Positions 429-48,347 of a stretch of 64,000 bases of DNA are shown here, in pieces. How positions within the stretch are numbered: position 1 is the first letter of the stretch; the number at the start of each line of letters is the position of its first letter. The notes under the pieces were generated by a model that made no database searches, was not told the origin of the DNA, and saw only the letters and a list, made by a program, of their open reading frames with translations. The translations under genes were made by a program, and so were the position numbers. The stretch covers positions 1 through 64,000 of the IMG/VR virus record IMGVR_UViG_3300042453_002354; one strand, written 5' to 3'. Source of the stretch: a virus.

Positions 429-640
429 ATTCTACCCTCCGGACACCATCCCTTTAAAAAATCAAAAATAGGTCTACCAACAAATTCACAATCGCTCATT
501 TTTACCCATTTGCCATGCTGATCGCCGTGCGGTTTAATCACCCTTAGCATTTTCAAGGATGATTTAACACGCAAAACTGAGTACAATTCACCCCTACATC
601 TAATTATATCACGAATTTTTATTTCCTCTGAGCCATTCAT
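425..640 (-). CDS. Hypothetical protein (71 aa)
   Basis: Small mixed alpha/beta protein overlapping the 3' end of the RNA ligase gene by 32 bases and ending in an ATGA overlap with the lipoprotein-like gene. The short beta-rich N-terminal half (IRDIIRCRGELYSVLRVKSS) could be a small barrel, but I recognise no family. It lies in a co-directional operon of ligase, this gene and the lipoprotein. Confidence 0.65.
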   Translation of the reverse strand: MNGSEEIKIRDIIRCRGELYSVLRVKSSLKMLRVIKPHGDQHGKWVKMSDCEFVGRPIFDFLKGWCPEGRI

Positions 641-1634
641 TTGATATCACCTTAAAAGAGGTATAGTTACGTACATCACCAAAAGACTTAAACACAAGAC
701 CTTCTCTTGGTACATCTGCCAATTCAGATCTGCCATCTGCCCAGTTTATTAAAATGTCCAGAGACTCAAAATCTTCCAAACTTACATTACTAAACGTTGG
801 TACATGATGTAATCTTGCATCGAGTCCTATCAAACTTAAAAAGTCCATTCTCTCTTGAGAAGAAAGATATCTCTGGTTTCTTATATCAAATACATCAAAT
901 ATCTTGAGAGTAGGCTTTTTCAATTTATATGAATTCGATTGTATTCCTGGTCCTATTAATTCTCCCTGTAAGGCGACAGAGGTGTCTTTCAATCTGTGAT
1001 TAAGTTCCAATTCTTCAGCAACACAATCCCATGCACTTTCTTTACCTAGTTTCTTCTCAAAGTTTCTACTACAAGCACCAAATCTACCTTCATGATGAAA
1101 GAACGTTGCACTAGTACCATCTAATTTTTCACTCACCTCAAATTTCAAATCGTGTGGTAGTGACTGTAGATGAGAAAACATGTTTTGTATTCTTTCTTGA
1201 TCTGTTTTTCTTATGAAATGCGGAAACTCGTCAAGTATATCCGCATTTATGAATTTCAATTCTGGTTCGTACTTTGTTATTCCTAATTGTTCTGTGACAT
1301 CAGCACCTTCTGCCGTTGATACATCCACAAATCCTTGAAGCGGAAATACCAAACCTTGTGATATTTGATTTCTAATAGTAATCGTTTTTACTCTATCACC
1401 ACCAGGCCCTCTCAATTTACCCTTTGATGTCTTTTCATCCCACAAATTTGCACGTTTCAGTAGATCAACTGGAACGACAGAATCAATCTCCAAATAAACA
1501 ACTCTATCACCAACATTAAATTGATCTTTTCTAACTACACACGACCATCCATCGACCCTAGCTACGACTATATTATCGGCATCAGGAATCGAATTGATGT
1601 CTGCTATTTTTCTAACAGAAGCTAATTTTCTCAT
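609..1634 (-). CDS. RNA ligase, DRB0094/Rnl5-like
   Basis: Predicted ATP-dependent RNA ligase that seals 3'-OH/5'-phosphate breaks. Residues 1-60 (RKLASVRKI...VGDRVVYLEIDS) match the N-terminal OB-type domain of the Deinococcus DRB0094 family. All nucleotidyltransferase motifs are visible: motif I SEKLDG with adenylated Lys170, motif III LQGEL (Glu225), IIIa FDVFD (about 246-250), motif IV EGLVF (Glu311) and motif V SFKV (Lys328). Length 341 aa is normal for the family. T4-like phages use RNA ligases to repair tRNA cut by host defence nucleases; whether this one does so is inference. It heads a run of small unknown genes. Confidence 0.92.
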   Translation of the reverse strand: MRKLASVRKIADINSIPDADNIVVARVDGWSCVVRKDQFNVGDRVVYLEIDSVVPVDLLKRANLWDEKTSKGKLRGPGGDRVKTITIRNQISQGLVFPLQGFVDVSTAEGADVTEQLGITKYEPELKFINADILDEFPHFIRKTDQERIQNMFSHLQSLPHDLKFEVSEKLDGTSATFFHHEGRFGACSRNFEKKLGKESAWDCVAEELELNHRLKDTSVALQGELIGPGIQSNSYKLKKPTLKIFDVFDIRNQRYLSSQERMDFLSLIGLDARLHHVPTFSNVSLEDFESLDILINWADGRSELADVPREGLVFKSFGDVRNYTSFKVISNEWLRGNKNS

Positions 1635-27262: not shown

Positions 27263-27532
27263 TTATTTTTCCATCTTTGCAAGACGATCATAATAATCAG
27301 GAAGTTCTTTGAGATGTGCTAATGCAACTTTTGCAATCTTATGAAAATCGTGTGAACCTGGAATAACATCGGTTTCGGAACTATCGTCGTGTTCTTGTTC
27401 GACTTCCATTCCCTTTCTTAATTGCTCTAAATCTATATCATTCCAATTGACGTTTAGCTCGTCGCCAACTTTCTTTGCGAATTCTTTACTAATAGATTTC
27501 TTTTCTGTGATGAATGAGGAAAATGATTTCAT
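27263..27532 (-). CDS. DUF5661-like conserved protein (89 aa)
   Basis: Starts MKSFSSFITEKKSISKEFA. The pattern VNWNDIDLEQLRKGMEVEQEHD...FHKIAKVALAHLKELPDYYDRLAKME fits the DUF5661 family (WxxxDxEQxxxGxxVExEH then KIAxxHLxExPDYYxxLxxME), found widely in phage virion regions, often as a C-terminal part of larger proteins. Chosen start is the second Met of the open frame; the first is an alternative. A late-promoter motif lies just upstream. Confidence 0.75.
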   Translation of the reverse strand: MKSFSSFITEKKSISKEFAKKVGDELNVNWNDIDLEQLRKGMEVEQEHDDSSETDVIPGSHDFHKIAKVALAHLKELPDYYDRLAKMEK

Positions 27533-41315: not shown

Positions 41316-43358
41316 TTAGTCAACAACGTATGTTGCACGAAGAACATCACCAGACTGTGGTTGTGCACCAGATTCAAAGGTGATAACTGCACCAGATACG
41401 GTGTAGTCTGCACCAGCGCCAGGACGAAGAACAAGTCCGTTAAGCATAACTTGTAGCTTACCAGAAAGTGGTGTTGAAGCCAAGTTAAACGTTACGTTTG
41501 TTCCGTCAATTGTTCCCGATGGAGTTTCGTTGAAGATGAAGCTGCTTTCAGATACCTTTGCATTCAATTGTGTTTGAATTGCAGAAGTAACTCCCGAAAG
41601 ATATCCAAGTTCAGTCGAAGTAACCGAAGAAGCACTAGGTAGTCCATTTGCATCCGATACGAGAGCACGGCTAGCAGTCAAAAGACTTGCAGCGAATGCT
41701 GTACCAGCGGAATTCATATGGAGGAACGAATATGCACTTGCAGCCGAGAGGTTAGCATTACTACCACCACGTGACAATGCTAGTTGTGCTTCCGAAGACA
41801 TAACGCCTGTACCATCGTTCACAAGAACGTGACTTGCAGTTCCCGATGCGAGCTTGCTTCTAGCGATAGCGGCACTTGCCGAAACCTTAGAATCAACAAC
41901 TGCATCCGAAGCAAGTTTTGCTTCTGTTACGTTAGCATCTGCAATCTTAGCTGTAGTAACAGCACTGTCAGCAAGTTTTCCGGTAGTAACAGCACCATCG
42001 GCAAGTTTTCCGGTAGTAACATTACTATCAGCGATCTTAGCTGTAGTAACATTGCTATCAGCAATCTTAGCGGTTGTTACGTTAGAATCTGCGATCTTAG
42101 CTGTGGTAACAGCACTGTCAGCAAGTTCTGCGGTATTAACTGCACTATCGGCGAGCTTTGAGTTTGTTACAGCATTGTCTGCGATTTGTGCGCTATCAAC
42201 AGCACTATCGGCAATCTTTGCATTTGTAACAGCATCGTCGGCAATCTTAGCTGTGGTAACATTGCTATCAGCAATCTTAGCTGTCGTTACGTTAGAATCT
42301 GCAATCTTAGCTGTGGTAACAGCATCGGCTGCGAGCTTTGCGGTAGTAACGTTAAGATCGGTGATCTTCACAGTAGTAACAGCATCGTCTGCGAGCTTTC
42401 CGGTAGTAACATTAAGATCAGCAATCTTAGCGGTTGTTACGTTAGAGTCTGCAATCTTAGCGGTTGTTACGTTAGAATCTGCGATCTTAGCTGTGGTAAC
42501 AGCACTGTCAGCAATCTTGCTTGTGACAACTGCACTTGATGCAATCTTTGCTTCTGTTACGTTAGCATCAGCAATCTTTGATGTGATTACCGAATCGGCA
42601 GCGAGCTTTCCGGAAGCAATCGAAAGATTGACGAGCGAGAACGACAATTCGTTTGCGGCTGCAACGACATCAATTTCAGAGCTATCTGCAAGAGATTTGA
42701 ACTCGAAATTGCTTCCACTGAGCTGCTTGAATACGCCTTCTCCTGTACCTACGTTCGATGATGTCTGTGTACCAGCACCAGAGAACTGAGTAAATACGAG
42801 ATTGTCTGTACCAACTACAAGATTTGACTGACCAGTCAATACCCAAGAAGTATTAGGATTTACAGAACCTTCTTGTACGAATACAAGGTTTCCGCCTCTT
42901 ACTTCGGTACCAGGACTGTCATCGAAATCCGATGCACGACTCCAAGAACCAGAAGCAACAACGTAAACACCGTTATTTACTTGGTTTGTCTGATTCTTTA
43001 CAAGAACTCTATCATCAGCAACGAGCGATACGCCATCGACGGTAAGAAGTCCCGAAAGACTTGCAATGTTTGCGGTACTAGCAACACGAACTGCCTGCTT
43101 TACGCTAACACCAGCGGCAACATCTTGCAACTGTGAATAGGTAACTGCATCGTTCGGGTTAGAACCGGCACCAAGATTGGTTAGCTTAAAACCACCAGCA
43201 TCGTGGTTTGCTGTCCAAACCACTGAACCATCTTTCTTCAAGAAATTGCTACCATCTGCCAGCTTCGACGAAGCGATTGCGGCATCTGATGCAATCTCTG
43301 CATTTGTGATAGTACCAGACATAATCTGTGTATTACCACGGATTTTTAGTTGTGCCAT
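41316..43358 (-). CDS. Long tail fibre protein with decapeptide repeats
   Basis: 680 aa. N-module (MAQLKIRGNTQIMSGTITNA), then residues 45-200 with a domain frequent in phage fibres (WTANHDAGGFKLTNLGAG, VDGVSLVADDRVLVKNQTN, GVYVVASGSWSRASDFD). Residues 251-490 are 24 repeats of exactly ten residues, consensus K-[IL]-A-D-S-N-V-T-T-A, giving an elongated repeat shaft. Then about 100 mixed residues and a C-terminal copy of the shared beta-domain (GTIDGTNVTFNL...MLNGLVLRPGAGADY). AAGGAG upstream; tandem terminators downstream. Confidence 0.92.
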   Translation of the reverse strand: MAQLKIRGNTQIMSGTITNAEIASDAAIASSKLADGSNFLKKDGSVVWTANHDAGGFKLTNLGAGSNPNDAVTYSQLQDVAAGVSVKQAVRVASTANIASLSGLLTVDGVSLVADDRVLVKNQTNQVNNGVYVVASGSWSRASDFDDSPGTEVRGGNLVFVQEGSVNPNTSWVLTGQSNLVVGTDNLVFTQFSGAGTQTSSNVGTGEGVFKQLSGSNFEFKSLADSSEIDVVAAANELSFSLVNLSIASGKLAADSVITSKIADANVTEAKIASSAVVTSKIADSAVTTAKIADSNVTTAKIADSNVTTAKIADLNVTTGKLADDAVTTVKITDLNVTTAKLAADAVTTAKIADSNVTTAKIADSNVTTAKIADDAVTNAKIADSAVDSAQIADNAVTNSKLADSAVNTAELADSAVTTAKIADSNVTTAKIADSNVTTAKIADSNVTTGKLADGAVTTGKLADSAVTTAKIADANVTEAKLASDAVVDSKVSASAAIARSKLASGTASHVLVNDGTGVMSSEAQLALSRGGSNANLSAASAYSFLHMNSAGTAFAASLLTASRALVSDANGLPSASSVTSTELGYLSGVTSAIQTQLNAKVSESSFIFNETPSGTIDGTNVTFNLASTPLSGKLQVMLNGLVLRPGAGADYTVSGAVITFESGAQPQSGDVLRATYVVD
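41889..42608 (-). repeat. 24 tandem 30-bp coding repeats
   Basis: Encodes residues 251-490 of the tail fibre in 24 exact 30-bp steps without any length change. Many neighbouring units are near-identical in DNA (e.g. the units coding SNVTTAKIAD), so slippage or recombination could change copy number in tens of residues. This is not a CRISPR array: there are no spacers and the frame is kept. Confidence 0.9.
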
Positions 43359-43466: not shown

Positions 43467-43730
43467 TTATTTTCTAAAGTAGTCGATTATTAAAATATCT
43501 CCTGGCAATGGAGCATAGTTCATGACAAAGGTTTGATCATTAGGTATCACGTAGTCTAGAAACTCTCCTGGTCTCAACCTTAGACCATTTAAATATATTT
43601 GGCAATGATCATCATAGAATCTATATTTAGTAAAAAATATAGTGTTGGTTCCATCAATGTCACCAACAGGTTCCTCATTTTCTACGTGCCTCAAAGTGGC
43701 TGGCATTATCACTTGCGCTGCTGGCGACAT
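43467..43730 (-). CDS. Stand-alone fibre beta-domain protein (87 aa)
   Basis: Starts MSPAAQVIMPATLRHVENEE behind GGGAG, overlapping the nucleotidyltransferase gene by 56 bases. Residues 20-86 match the beta-domain of the fibre proteins (PVGDIDGTNTIFFTKYRFYDDHCQIYLNGLRLRPGEFLDYVIPNDQTFVMNYAPLPGDILIIDY), especially the C-terminal domain of the long fibre. A one-domain relative of the fibre family. Could attach to or cap fibres; role inferred. Confidence 0.8.
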   Translation of the reverse strand: MSPAAQVIMPATLRHVENEEPVGDIDGTNTIFFTKYRFYDDHCQIYLNGLRLRPGEFLDYVIPNDQTFVMNYAPLPGDILIIDYFRK

Positions 43731-44460
43731 CTATAGACTCCCTTTCAAAACTATTAGGTATCATTTCAGCATACGCATCGACCAGTTCGTCAGTACCAAC
43801 CTCTAGCGTATGTTTAGGTAAAAATCTATTATCTAATTTTTCTTCCTTTTTGTAAAATTCTAGGAATGATTGTAACACAAAATCTTCAGATTGCAAGTTT
43901 ATTTTTTTGCGTAATGTATTATACATTAATTTGGCCGCATCAGCTTTCAATCCAGACATTAAACCTTTACTGAATTCAGTAAAATTACCAGAGGATGCTA
44001 AAGATCTTAACTTTGAAGCACTCATTCCGGTAACATCATCTGCGTCAGGATCTCTTGCACCAGCACTTATGACTTTAACGGAGTCCGCATCAATAGACTT
44101 ACTTTTATCTGCAATATTTAGATAAGGTAAAATCATTGCTCTAAATGATTGTACTCTATCTTCACCGACAATTACAACAATTTCTTTGTATCCTTGATTG
44201 GCCAAATGCTGTAATGCTTGAAATGGCGTTTTTATGGATTCATCCTTTACAATAAATGGTGATATTTTTGGATAACCCAAGGAAATAAATTTAATCTTTT
44301 CGGCAAAACTCAAAGGATTCTTTTTTTTGTCTTGTGTGTGCGATACAAATAAAAATGGTCTAGCATCTATTTTCTTTGCCGTAGATAATACTTTATCAAG
44401 TAAAAGCTGGTGTCCCGATGTGGGTGGATTTAATCGACCAAATGTCATTACCGCTTTCAT
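43675..44460 (-). CDS. Cytidylyltransferase-like (HxGH) nucleotidyltransferase
   Basis: 261 aa. TFGRLNPPTSGHQLLLDKVL at the N-terminus is the nucleotidyltransferase motif (GRxNPxTxGHxxLL, as in NMN adenylyltransferase/NadM- or CoaD-type enzymes), followed by PFLFVSHTQDKKKNPLSFAEKIKF and later VVIVGEDRVQSFR and ISAGARDPDADDVTGMSASKLRSLA, the SxxxxR-type second motif. It therefore transfers NMP to a phosphate group; substrate unknown. Directly followed by the KxDG-motif gene upstream in a conserved-looking pair. Confidence 0.82.
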   Translation of the reverse strand: MKAVMTFGRLNPPTSGHQLLLDKVLSTAKKIDARPFLFVSHTQDKKKNPLSFAEKIKFISLGYPKISPFIVKDESIKTPFQALQHLANQGYKEIVVIVGEDRVQSFRAMILPYLNIADKSKSIDADSVKVISAGARDPDADDVTGMSASKLRSLASSGNFTEFSKGLMSGLKADAAKLMYNTLRKKINLQSEDFVLQSFLEFYKKEEKLDNRFLPKHTLEVGTDELVDAYAEMIPNSFERESIDVASSASDNASHFEARRK

Positions 44461-44461
44461 A

Positions 44462-45673
44462 TTAGCCCCAATTTTTAGCGACAGTAAAGTTAAGTTTAGA
44501 AAATTCCAATCTATCCACTAATTTCAATGCAGTATTATCATTGGAGACTGCAACGAATCCTTCGGGATCTGTCACCTTAAAACCATCTTCAGTTTGTATA
44601 AATGTTCCTACTGTTTTGGTTTTCTTTAGTTTGGCTATTAACATTAATTTACAATCAATTAATAGCTTTTGTATTTCATACAGTTTATATAAGTTTTCTC
44701 TTGACGACTCCACAAAATCTATTAAATTTTGCAATCTTGAAGTTCTATCAATTTTTGACTTTTCTGTTTTAAGTTTATCTATTTCTACCTGAAACTTTTG
44801 TTTTATGAAGTTTATCAGTCCATCTACATGTGACTTCACATCGCCAATCGTTGAACCAACTTTTACATTTGCATTAAAATACATGTGCATATATGGCAAC
44901 AATTCAGAAGATGATAATTTATTTAATAGATTTTTTGTTTGTGAATCCATTAAACTTCTAATAGACTTAATTTTTACTGCTATTTGTTTAGTTTCTTCTT
45001 TTGTAAATGTTGCGGTACCGGATACATCTTTAAAAAATGCATCAGTAACCCAAACATTAGGATTTGATTTCAGTTTAGATATGTCCACATCAAACGATGC
45101 ACTAGAATCGGCTATGGTTGATCCTGTATATTTTGTGTGAAAAACAATTCCTATTTTGGCTTTTTGTATTTTCTTTGCAAAATCACTATCAAGAGGTACG
45201 GCATATGTGATGGTATTTGGTCTAAATGTTAAACAATTTTCTCCTTCAATCTCTTGCATCGAAACACTATCATCCGTAAATAATAAATCGCCTTGCAATA
45301 TTTCATTAAAATTTAATTTACTCAAATGTTGTAGTGCTACTTTTAATTTTTCAGCTAAAGCACCTTCGTGATTTTTGTTTATGTCGGTAACAGTATAATT
45401 AATTTTTGGTCCTACTTTGTTGAAAACGCTTTTAGTTCCAACAAAAAACTTACCAGTTTCTGGATCTTTACCACAAACAATAGCAGGAGCACCGTCCCAC
45501 TTTGTGGTTACTTTGACACTTTTGTTCGATGAAGTTGCTAACATTTTAGCAACAGATGTTATGAATCTAATTGCAGTAGATAAACCTTGCACACCTTTGT
45601 CGAACATCTCATCTTCCAAATGCGTTAAATGCACATTTTTAGATTCTTGTAGAAAAATGTTAAAAGATTTCAT
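44462..45673 (-). CDS. DUF6267-like protein with ligase-type KxDG motif
   Basis: 403 aa, a family I recognise from marine T4-like phages by the KWDGAPAI signature. Residues 58-61 (KWDG) match motif I of covalent nucleotidyltransferases; 127-131 (QGDLL) fits motif III; 174-178 (IGIVF) motif IIIa; 370-374 (PEGFV) motif IV; Lys384 or Lys393 motif V. The long helical insert (about 225-350) lies between. Inference: an RNA ligase-, DNA ligase- or capping-enzyme-like fold. It ends 2 bases before the cytidylyltransferase-like gene. Confidence 0.8.
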   Translation of the reverse strand: MKSFNIFLQESKNVHLTHLEDEMFDKGVQGLSTAIRFITSVAKMLATSSNKSVKVTTKWDGAPAIVCGKDPETGKFFVGTKSVFNKVGPKINYTVTDINKNHEGALAEKLKVALQHLSKLNFNEILQGDLLFTDDSVSMQEIEGENCLTFRPNTITYAVPLDSDFAKKIQKAKIGIVFHTKYTGSTIADSSASFDVDISKLKSNPNVWVTDAFFKDVSGTATFTKEETKQIAVKIKSIRSLMDSQTKNLLNKLSSSELLPYMHMYFNANVKVGSTIGDVKSHVDGLINFIKQKFQVEIDKLKTEKSKIDRTSRLQNLIDFVESSRENLYKLYEIQKLLIDCKLMLIAKLKKTKTVGTFIQTEDGFKVTDPEGFVAVSNDNTALKLVDRLEFSKLNFTVAKNWG

Positions 45674-45693: not shown

Positions 45694-46302
45694 TTATTCT
45701 TTATCTAATGAATCCATTTTATCATCGCTTTCATAAGTTTTAAACTTATTTTTCATTCGCCAAGCTCTAGCATAAAGAACTTGTTTTCCTTTTTCGGGTC
45801 CATATTGTTTAATGAATCTGGCTTTATTCTTTTTAATCCAAGTTTCGTAATCTTTCCCTGGTGGCGAAACTTCATCTAATGATTCTTCTTCAGCAATTTT
45901 TGAAACTGGCGTGTCGGACCACATCTTACAAGACCAATAATTGGCTTTCCATTTTGGGCCTGGATCTGAACAATTATGTCTTGCTCTATAACTAGCTCTT
46001 CTTTCTGGATCATCTCTCTTAATTTCCATATTAGGATCGCCAAAATTAACTTTGACTACATTACCCTTGTCATTTTTGACATATACTGAAAACTTTTTAG
46101 GGCCGCCTGGTGTACGAAATGGTTTATTAAGTGTAACTTTTTTACCTTCGTGTTCAGATTCTTCGTGCATATCTTCACAATCATCTTCTTTCATACAAGA
46201 ACCTTTTTCATATGGTTTCTTGCCTGGCGTTGGTTTATAACCGTCCCAACATCTTTCGCTTAGTTCTTTTGATTCTTTTAGTATTTTGGATAATGTTTTC
46301 AT
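45694..46302 (-). CDS. Conserved marine T4-like phage protein, putative virion part
   Basis: 202 aa. Signature segments ERCWDGYKPTPGKKPYEKGSC, LNKPFRTPGGPKKFSVYVKN, KVNFGDPNMEIKRDDPERRASYRARHNCSDPGPKWKANYWSCKMW and DYETWIKKNKARFIKQYGPEKGKQVLYARAW occur together in a widespread family of marine phages; it is sometimes a domain of head-region proteins. The Cys-rich RARHNC...WSCKMW part may bind metal. A perfect late-promoter core lies upstream. Function not known. Confidence 0.82.
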   Translation of the reverse strand: MKTLSKILKESKELSERCWDGYKPTPGKKPYEKGSCMKEDDCEDMHEESEHEGKKVTLNKPFRTPGGPKKFSVYVKNDKGNVVKVNFGDPNMEIKRDDPERRASYRARHNCSDPGPKWKANYWSCKMWSDTPVSKIAEEESLDEVSPPGKDYETWIKKNKARFIKQYGPEKGKQVLYARAWRMKNKFKTYESDDKMDSLDKE

Positions 46303-46370: not shown

Positions 46371-46379
46371 GTATTTATA
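46371..46379 (-). promoter_or_regulatory. Late promoter motif TATAAATAC
   Basis: Exact TATAAATA core on the minus strand, about 69 bases before the 45694-46302 gene. It sits in the intergenic space between this gene and the divergent plus-strand gene at 46402. Confidence 0.6.
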
Positions 46380-46794: not shown

Positions 46795-47787
46795 TCATTT
46801 TCTGACGCTAGATTCGGACTGATATGTTGGCGTAACTTCAACAAATTCCGCCTTTCTTTGCAATTCGGATATTGTTCTGGCACCACCATAAGTTAAGGCC
46901 GATCTCAATCCTCCTAGCAATTCATCTATAAGTTGTTGTGCACTTTTCTCGACCGGAGCCCAAAAGTGTTCACCCTCTGCTACCGTACCTTTCTTTAATC
47001 CACCTCTAGCTTCATCTTGAAAATCTTTTGATGCTTGTCCTCTGTATTTTGCATATATCTGAAAGTCTGTGTTTCTTTTTTGTGCGGCACTTTCGTAAGT
47101 TAGTGCAAATAGCTTTCCTATCATTACGGTAGAAGCACCAGCGGCCAACGCAAGCACAATATCTCTTGAATTTCTTATACCACCATCGGCAATAATTGGT
47201 ACTTTAAATCTGCTTGCAATTTCACTGCAATCTTGTATTGCGCTAAATTGACTAACACCAAACCCCGTGGTCGATCTTGTAGTACAGGCAGCTCCAGGTC
47301 CAATACCAACCTTTATCGCATCAGCACCAGACGAAATTAAATCATGGGTGCCCATAGCTGTACAAACATTTCCAGCTATAATTTTAACATGAGGATATTT
47401 TGATTTAATAAACTCAATTTCTTGCATCATAGATTTTGAATGTCCGTGTGCAATGTCAAACGTTATTACACTGGCACCGACACCTATAAAATCTTCTAAG
47501 TAATCGTTATTCAATCCAGTTGAAATGGAACAATTAGAGTATTTCTTAATCCACAATCTTTGTTGTTCTATATCTGTAAATCTATGAAATATGGGAAATC
47601 CACCGTTCGACAAAAGCACATCAGCTAATTGATCGCAAATGACAGTATCCATATTAGCTGCCAATAATGGCATACCAATTTTAGTATCCTTAACAAGCCA
47701 AGTTGATAGATCTGGTTCAGTTCTGCTACTTATATTACTATATTGCGGAACTAGTGCTACGTCATCAAAAGTTAAAACTCTTCTCAT
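46795..47787 (-). CDS. IMPDH/GMPR family enzyme, probably GMP reductase
   Basis: 330 aa from MRRVLTFDDVALVPQYS (CAGGAG upstream; the frame extends to 47829). TIM barrel with RTEPDLSTWL, PLLAANMDTV, IIAGNVCTAMG, KVGIGPGAACTTRSTTGFG (catalytic Cys168), PIIADGGIRNSRDIVLALAAGAS and LGGLRSALTYGGARTI. No CBS domain pair, and the length is that of GMP reductase (IMPDH is about 480), so GMP to IMP conversion is favoured; IMPDH activity is the alternative. Unusual in a T4-like replication cluster. Confidence 0.82.
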   Translation of the reverse strand: MRRVLTFDDVALVPQYSNISSRTEPDLSTWLVKDTKIGMPLLAANMDTVICDQLADVLLSNGGFPIFHRFTDIEQQRLWIKKYSNCSISTGLNNDYLEDFIGVGASVITFDIAHGHSKSMMQEIEFIKSKYPHVKIIAGNVCTAMGTHDLISSGADAIKVGIGPGAACTTRSTTGFGVSQFSAIQDCSEIASRFKVPIIADGGIRNSRDIVLALAAGASTVMIGKLFALTYESAAQKRNTDFQIYAKYRGQASKDFQDEARGGLKKGTVAEGEHFWAPVEKSAQQLIDELLGGLRSALTYGGARTISELQRKAEFVEVTPTYQSESSVRK

Positions 47788-47789
47788 AA

Positions 47790-48347
47790 CTACTCCTGTG
47801 TTGATAATTGATCTCCCCACGAATCCCATCCAGATTCAGTTTGTCTAGCAAAAAGTTCTATTCTAGGTAAATCACCAACTAATTCTACTATATGTTTTCT
47901 TATTATATCAGGCTTTTTGCTATGAGATTCTATTGGCGATAAAACAACTTGTTTGATTGATGCAGACTTTCTTTTGATCTTGCCACGTAAACCTAGTAGA
48001 CACAATTCGGCATTGCTTCTGGTCCAGTTTCCCATACCCATAAAAATTGTATCTTGAGATTTTTTGTTCGTCTTGACCCAAGTGAATGCACAAGTTTTAT
48101 ATGTAAATCCCCAAGATTTAATTACATTTAATCCTTCTTGTAGCTTAGGATATGTAACCCACATAAAAAGAATGCAATCATCAGCACATATCTCAGATAT
48201 TGGTAGTTCTTCTATTGATTTGTCATTCATTAAATTATATTTACATCCTGCACCTCTGTTCCCTGCTAATGCTTTATCTTTATACATCCAAGGAGGATCT
48301 GCATAAATTATATTATACTTCTTATTAGGGAAGGGTATCATAATCAA
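47790..48347 (-). CDS. MT-A70 family adenine methyltransferase
   Basis: 185 aa. YADPPWMYKDK (residues about 16-26) carries the DPPW catalytic motif of MT-A70 N6-adenine methyltransferases; LFMWVTYPKLQEGLNVIKSWGF, FTWVKTNKK, GMGNWTRSNAELCLLGLRG and SKKPDIIRKHIVELVG follow in family order, the last with the SxKPxxxR SAM-site pattern. Likely modifies phage DNA (protection) or RNA; target unknown. Overlaps gp41 by 4 bases. Confidence 0.88.
   Translation of the reverse strand: MIMIPFPNKKYNIIYADPPWMYKDKALAGNRGAGCKYNLMNDKSIEELPISEICADDCILFMWVTYPKLQEGLNVIKSWGFTYKTCAFTWVKTNKKSQDTIFMGMGNWTRSNAELCLLGLRGKIKRKSASIKQVVLSPIESHSKKPDIIRKHIVELVGDLPRIELFARQTESGWDSWGDQLSTQE

Follow-up and report, generated by a model that had tools for sequence, protein, structure and literature searches.

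The DUF6267 gene and its neighbours

The DNA analysed here, referred to as the window, is a stretch of 64,000 nucleotides from a virus record of 156,877 bases. The source is a T4-like phage, which carries genes for Gp23 (PF07068, E 1e-126) and a gp21-type prohead protease (PF03420, E 2.5e-40) as well as RecA- and DnaB-type genes where UvsX and gp41 would be expected. The window contains a real gene of the DUF6267 family, the product of which matches the whole family model (Table 1). Relatives of this gene were found in 468 of 50,697 phage records, mostly from cyanophages, and no paper naming the family was found in the literature searched.

Table 1. Features of the DUF6267 locus and related genes (window positions unless stated otherwise; a slash in a peptide marks the predicted gp21 cut site).
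Feature	Position	Strand	Remarks
Canonical RNA ligase, Rnl5-like, N-terminal OB domain	609-1634	-	PF21189 and PF09414
Tagged 89-aa DUF5661 protein	27263-27532	-	MKSFSSFITE/K; own TATAAATA 29 bp upstream
HxGH-superfamily nucleotidyltransferase (PHROG "cytidyltransferase", NMNAT-like), untagged here	43675-44460	-	phrog_3041 E 5.7e-50, phrog_395 E 1.7e-43, phrog_455 E 2.3e-21
DUF6267 ORF	44462-45673	-	403 aa; PF19782 E 3.5e-119, whole model
K384 codon (ALKLVDR)	44522-44524	-	motif V; kept 58/58
E371 codon (PEGFV)	44561-44563	-	motif IV; kept 58/58
Helical insert, residues about 225-350	44624-45001	-	between motifs IIIa and IV; model DSSP and alignment
D129 codon (QGDLLF)	45287-45289	-	acidic residue, motif III-like; kept 58/58
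K58 codon	45500-45502	-	motif I KxDG; proposed nucleotide-accepting lysine; kept 58/58
Predicted T4-type capsid-targeting sequence, codons 1-10	45644-45673	-	MKSFNIFLQE; predicted gp21 cut after E10
202-aa ORF just upstream of DUF6267	45694-46302	-	tag-like N-terminus MKTLSKILKE/S; weak DUF5754
TATAAATA, T4 late-promoter-type box	46372-46379	-	70 bp before 202-aa ORF, first of run 46302-43675
P-loop kinase of this phage	150653-151333 of phage record	+	possible tag MKSFQEFFISE if second ATG is the start

The run of genes that includes DUF6267 is preceded by a copy of TATAAATA, which we take to be the T4 late promoter element and which would drive the DUF6267 operon late. With 7 present against 9.4 expected, the window has no more of these boxes than chance would give; only their placement exceeds chance, as 4 of the 7 lie at most 80 bp upstream of the start of an ORF on the same strand (P = 0.0003, for a distance of 80 bp picked after the sites had been seen). 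Also on the minus strand of the window are an IMP dehydrogenase/GMP reductase-like gene with an overlapping MT-A70 methyltransferase gene (46795-48347), beside the DnaB-type helicase gene, and the gene for a probable tail-fibre protein of 680 aa with many VTTAKIADSN-type repeats (41316-43358).

The first-pass annotation had placed an HxGH-type nucleotidyltransferase gene 2 bases from DUF6267. The two genes do adjoin, but a single base (44461) lies between them, and the motif of the window protein reads TxGH (NPPTSGH); HxGH is found in the S-SZBM1 protein. The neighbour matches the NadD model TIGR00482 weakly (E 3.1e-4; 20.8 bits, below the cut-off of 112.45) and the PDB profile of MJ0541, presumably an NMN adenylyltransferase, at E 0.078. 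In the set of 201 DUF6267 ORFs, 134 are accompanied by an HxGH ORF, in all cases on the same strand and in 65 within 150 bases; for 25 of the 67 DUF6267 ORFs without one, by hand count, the sequence continues downstream for at least 3 kb. The PHROG family phrog_455 spans both proteins, and a 591-aa protein of S-PM2, named for its cytidyltransferase domain, shows a 40% match to DUF6267 (BFVD A0A0M6VVW4). The pairing of the two genes, which had also been proposed, thus finds support in their adjacency and in the fused form. Evidence for fusion comes from phrog_455 and A0A0M6VVW4; none of the 201 DUF6267 ORFs is fused.

Of 200 loci, 32 encode a P-loop kinase (GGPGSGK-type motif) either less than 3 kb away or as part of the HxGH protein, including two kinase-HxGH fusions (L183 and L068). 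In a scan of nine such kinase proteins, the matches were to AAA_33, Zeta_toxin or adenylate kinase models; AAA_33 includes polynucleotide kinases, and a PDB search gave no decisive match. At one further locus (L086, 5534-8671, plus strand), a 1046-aa multi-enzyme protein was observed in which the HxGH domain is combined with RimK-like ATP-grasp and Zn-protease domains.

Conserved motifs and predicted fold

From the letters of the gene it had been proposed that KWDGAPAI represents motif I (KxDG) of covalent nucleotidyltransferases, with the lysine at position 58, and that GDLLF, IGIVF, PEGFV and a late lysine follow in the order of motifs III, IIIa, IV and V. All of these were found in the predicted protein and in that order, with K58, D129, E371 and K384 at the key positions. 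Across an alignment of 58 DUF6267 sequences, which covers the short forms from cyanophages as well as two cyanophage members that have diverged strongly, K58, D60, G61, D129, E371, G372 and K384 are identical in every sequence, even though identity to the short form drops to 28-38% among members of the set. The residue at the motif III position is D rather than E. H15, H18, K81, Q127, N153, Y157, H179, T180, Y182, N267 and K342 are invariant in the same alignment, and we take H15 and H18 not to be part of the ligase motifs. Some relatives were retrieved in two collection scans by peptide patterns that contain KWDGAP, which biases this part of the set towards that motif; K58 is also kept in the relatives retrieved without KWDGAP, i.e., those from the first scan, the short forms and the two most diverged members, which were found with the Pfam model. 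Alignments A1, A2 and A4 consist of selected representatives (36, 76 and 56, respectively) and not of every fetched copy, and one protein with an unknown residue was dropped from one step.

Structure prediction, which the first-pass annotation had suggested as a check, was carried out with AlphaFold2 for the window protein together with 75 relatives (pLDDT 89.3, pTM 0.86) and for L195, a relative of only 307 aa (aligned with 55 other rows; pLDDT 91.3), which was modelled to get rid of the helical insert; this insert is largely absent from the short cyanophage forms in the alignment. Both models show a nucleotidyltransferase fold, and ligases head the VIA-align matches listed. For the window protein, the first 13 rows listed are all Naegleria gruberi RNA ligase (best Z 9.1, 183 residues aligned, 3.8 Å), and REL1, T4 Rnl1, T4 Rnl2, Trl1, an archaeal RNA ligase and DNA ligases are among the further matches listed, together with some rows that cover the helical insert alone (Rad50, topoisomerase). 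With L195 the insert-only rows are gone and all 50 of the 50 matches listed are polynucleotide ligases, led by the Naegleria enzyme (Z 8.4, 175 residues, 3.7 Å) and T4 Rnl1 (Z 8.3). In the VIA-align comparison, DUF6267 residue 398 is paired with residue 339 of the Naegleria enzyme; counted back from these range ends without gaps, E371 would correspond to about residue 312 and K384 to about residue 325 of the Naegleria enzyme, and E312 and K326 of this enzyme are mutated in entries within the same VIA listing.

Other comparisons gave no significant match. With Foldseek, neither model had a PDB match below E 0.001 (best E for the short form, 0.032), and the top rows for the long form were Smc, condensin, cohesin and carbonic anhydrase. 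A PDB profile search with the DUF6267 family returned unrelated or coiled-coil-type matches of the kind expected by chance (best E 0.012), and no RNA ligase model was among the Pfam matches of the DUF6267 protein up to E 1. When DUF6267 was compared with the Rnl5-like ligase of the same phage by hhalign, KWDG was paired with KLDG and QGDLL with QGELI at a level that is not significant (E 0.013, probability 3%); the full comparison scored 26.7, a level also reached by 1 of 30 column-shuffled controls (27.0), and cutting out the helical insert worsened the score. No OB fold or other nucleic-acid-binding domain was identified in DUF6267, nor is one evident in the list of elements of the model.

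Since Foldseek and the sequence profiles were not significant, the fold claim is based on the two models and their uniform matches. VIA Z values of 8-9 lie at the edge of the range that unrelated models reach, and the weight of the comparison lies in the uniformity of the rows. On these predicted structures, we consider a nucleotidyltransferase fold in DUF6267 to be well supported. DUF6267 does not match the Pfam profile for RNA ligases (PF09414) and is therefore not filed as one of them, although it likely shares their first reaction step. The fold had originally been proposed to be that of ligases or capping enzymes; the ligase half of this proposal is supported, with RNA ligases fitting better, and the capping half is not favoured. 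Guanylyltransferases appeared as weak Foldseek rows for the short form and were absent among its 50 VIA matches listed.

Predicted capsid-targeting sequence and virion proteomes

The capsid-targeting N-terminus predicted for the DUF6267 protein is a feature that lies beyond the first-pass annotation. The window protein starts MKSFNIFLQE/S, the same layout as in the T4 internal proteins IPII and IPIII, which start MKTYQEFIAE/A. According to PMC9026906, IPIII needs no more than its first 10 residues to be packaged, with residues 4 and 7 weighing most in targeting and residues 8 and 10 in cutting. All four determinant positions are satisfied in the window protein (F4, F7, L8 and E10), and the tag falls within the part of the model with the lowest confidence (residues 1-13).

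By one regular expression, the tag was found in 77 of 118 DUF6267 representatives (80% identity; 4 of 122 were dropped as cut at the 5' end), including most of the copies that are not from cyanophages. Under a rule common to all groups, it was found in 106 of 194 DUF6267 ORFs and 61 of 133 HxGH ORFs, compared to 183 of 1593 other ORFs, which probably include further head cargo, and 332 of 7965 shuffled N-termini. The HxxH motif follows the cut site after 3-4 residues in 66 of 101 tagged proteins and follows the start methionine after 3-5 residues in 52 of 88 untagged ones; untagged proteins thus mostly start where tagged ones would be cut, with MAKN or MSKN in place of E/SKN. We regard packaging of the window protein in the head as likely.

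Published virion proteomes bear on the partner protein. The HxGH proteins of three cyanophages were detected in virions by mass spectrometry, namely S-SZBM1_140 (PMC9146016, Table 1), S-CREM2 ORF154 (PMC10665884, Table 3) and S-SCSM1 ORF91 (PMC9602691 and record labels), and the authors of two of the three left carry-over from cells possible. All three proteins are tagged (MRFRQFIIE/A, MKNFSSFLTE/A and MKSFLQFLKE/A, respectively). The DUF6267 copies of these three phages have no tag, and the DUF6267 protein is listed in none of the three proteomes (0/3); in S-CREM2 and S-SCSM1, moreover, the DUF6267 and HxGH genes are not neighbours. The absence of untagged DUF6267 from the virion lists fits the idea of a functional tag, through which tagged DUF6267 would itself be packaged; none of the virion proteomes found came from a phage whose DUF6267 is tagged. 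The accessible parts of the three papers mention neither the tag nor DUF6267, and among the titles and abstract starts found for capsid targeting in marine phages or cyanophages, or together with RNA ligase and ejection, none dealt with this idea.

The distribution of tags between adjacent genes is suggestive. Among 25 adjacent representatives, the tag is on the HxGH protein only in 15, on DUF6267 only in 6, on both in 1 and on neither in 3, and a recount, in which 191 rows were cut to 111, gave 15, 7, 1 and 2. Use of this pattern of one tag per pair as proof of co-packaging was rejected; the Fisher test gave P 0.003, but the association is not significant on the tree (3 changes; 2-3 independent pairs).

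The tag also offers an easy N-terminal signature by which injected proteins of T4-like phages can be sought. The small DUF5661 protein in Table 1 is another probable head cargo. Elsewhere in the phage record, a tagged 169-aa protein (MVLRFNQFISE/T...VVYRG...WVSTS; L265 4735-5244, plus strand, record positions 148735-149244) has no Pfam match, and its VYRG and STS stretches look ADP-ribosyltransferase-like, comparable to the injected Alt of T4. A tagged J-domain protein (MKNFKNFLIE/I; PF00226, E 2.5e-8; L265 5360-6358, minus strand, 149360-150358 of the record) is possibly an injected co-chaperone. Between the Gp23 and gp21 genes lies the gene for an acidic protein starting MSSKLNKLIQE/A (L203 5472-6884, minus strand, record positions 69472-70884), which, judged by its sequence and location, is a probable scaffold, and the N-terminal region of Gp23 holds LNE/A sites in line with the expected gp21 cut.

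Possible roles and known systems

We hold with about even confidence that DUF6267 belongs to the polynucleotide-ligase superfamily as a divergent covalent nucleotidyltransferase, closest in fold to RNA ligases, which is packaged by its tag, injected and acts early on nucleic-acid ends. The protein would be made late, the 10-residue tag would load the new protein into the prohead core, and gp21 would cut it after E10, leaving the enzyme in the head. It would then be delivered into the bacterium along with the DNA of the phage and act at once. K58 would take up NMP, most likely AMP from ATP, and the AMP would be passed to a 5'-phosphate end, resulting in sealing or in an adenylated end; the targets could be, e.g., cut tRNA or nicked phage DNA. 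The HxGH (NMNAT-like) nucleotidyltransferase and the P-loop kinase, which is close by in some relatives and encoded elsewhere in this phage, could serve as partners. We infer the Lys-NMP chemistry, the substrate and the co-operation with these partners. Counting against this reading is the canonical RNA ligase already present in the phage, which brings the number of its ligase-fold proteins to two, that of DUF6267 being predicted. As the phage has this Rnl5-like ligase, and a search of it for the ATP-dependent DNA ligase family found none, DUF6267 may be a version that works before phage genes are expressed or may serve a special substrate.

A wider form of this reading, which is tentative and in our judgement rather unlikely, is that marine T4-like phages ship a head-borne end-repair kit made up of DUF6267, a polynucleotide-kinase-like P-loop kinase and the HxGH protein. 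Each member would be tagged or ride on a tagged partner, and the kit would mend RNA or DNA breaks inflicted by the host before phage genes are expressed. Removal of the tag would free the stretch just before the invariant HxxH, and the prohead protease may in this way switch the enzyme on.

The same fold and chemistry could also belong to an enzyme that acts late in the cytoplasm, with a tag-like N-terminus that is unused or with packaging that is incidental. Such an enzyme would agree with the lack of untagged DUF6267 in the three virion proteomes, with the distance between the two genes in S-CREM2 and S-SCSM1 and with the background rate of the loose tag pattern on other ORFs. However, the tag occurs on most non-cyanophage copies, it is present or absent as a unit that ends at the cut site, and the tagged HxGH partner is reported from virions in 3 of 3 cases. 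We regard this alternative as unlikely. Quite unlikely, in our view, is a role in NAD metabolism, in which the HxGH protein would be an NMN adenylyltransferase, the kinase would make NMN, NAD+ would be rebuilt after a host defence that depletes NAD, and DUF6267 would use NAD+ or an NAD intermediate as donor. The kinase matches AAA_33 and Zeta_toxin and no nicotinamide riboside kinase model, and no NMN-binding domain was identified in DUF6267, as opposed to the weak NadD and MJ0541 matches of the HxGH protein, the resemblance of the kinase-HxGH fusions to NadR and the invariant H15 and H18 outside the ligase motifs, all of which would suit such a pathway. A head-internal or assembly protein that has kept the ligase fold without catalysis could explain the tag-like N-terminus and the linkage to a gene with a product reported from virions of other phages. 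A pseudoenzyme would not need the seven motif residues that are invariant despite 28-38% identity, and this explanation appears very improbable.

For the covalent nucleotidyltransferase that we prefer, the closest known counterpart is Naegleria gruberi RNA ligase (Rnl5 type; 5COT, 6VT1), which is the best structural match listed for both models and is like DUF6267 in its nucleotidyltransferase domain and order of motifs. The best rows align only residues 140-339 of the Naegleria chain, at about 11% identity, and leave unmatched the N-terminal part, which is presumably the OB domain; unlike this enzyme, DUF6267 has the helical insert, an invariant HxxH near the N-terminus and D at motif III. 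T4 RNA ligases 1 and 2 have the same domain (VIA Z 7.5 and 7.5 with the window protein, 8.3 and 7.0 with the short form), with no profile similarity to DUF6267 found. Both T4 enzymes are made after infection and are not known to carry a capsid tag.

Delivery has its parallel in T4 IPII, IPIII and Alt, which carry a short N-terminal propeptide, are cut by gp21 and are ejected with the DNA (PMC9026906, PMC9958956). The scheme is shared with DUF6267, for which it is predicted, whereas the mature parts are unrelated, the internal proteins being small and basic and Alt being an ADP-ribosyltransferase. The virion NMNAT-like cytidylyltransferases of S-SZBM1, S-CREM2 and S-SCSM1, in turn, represent the family of the DUF6267 partner and are tagged in all three phages; the virion papers (PMC9146016, PMC10665884 and PMC9602691) treat this NMNAT-like protein on its own, and two of the papers do so with reference to NAD.
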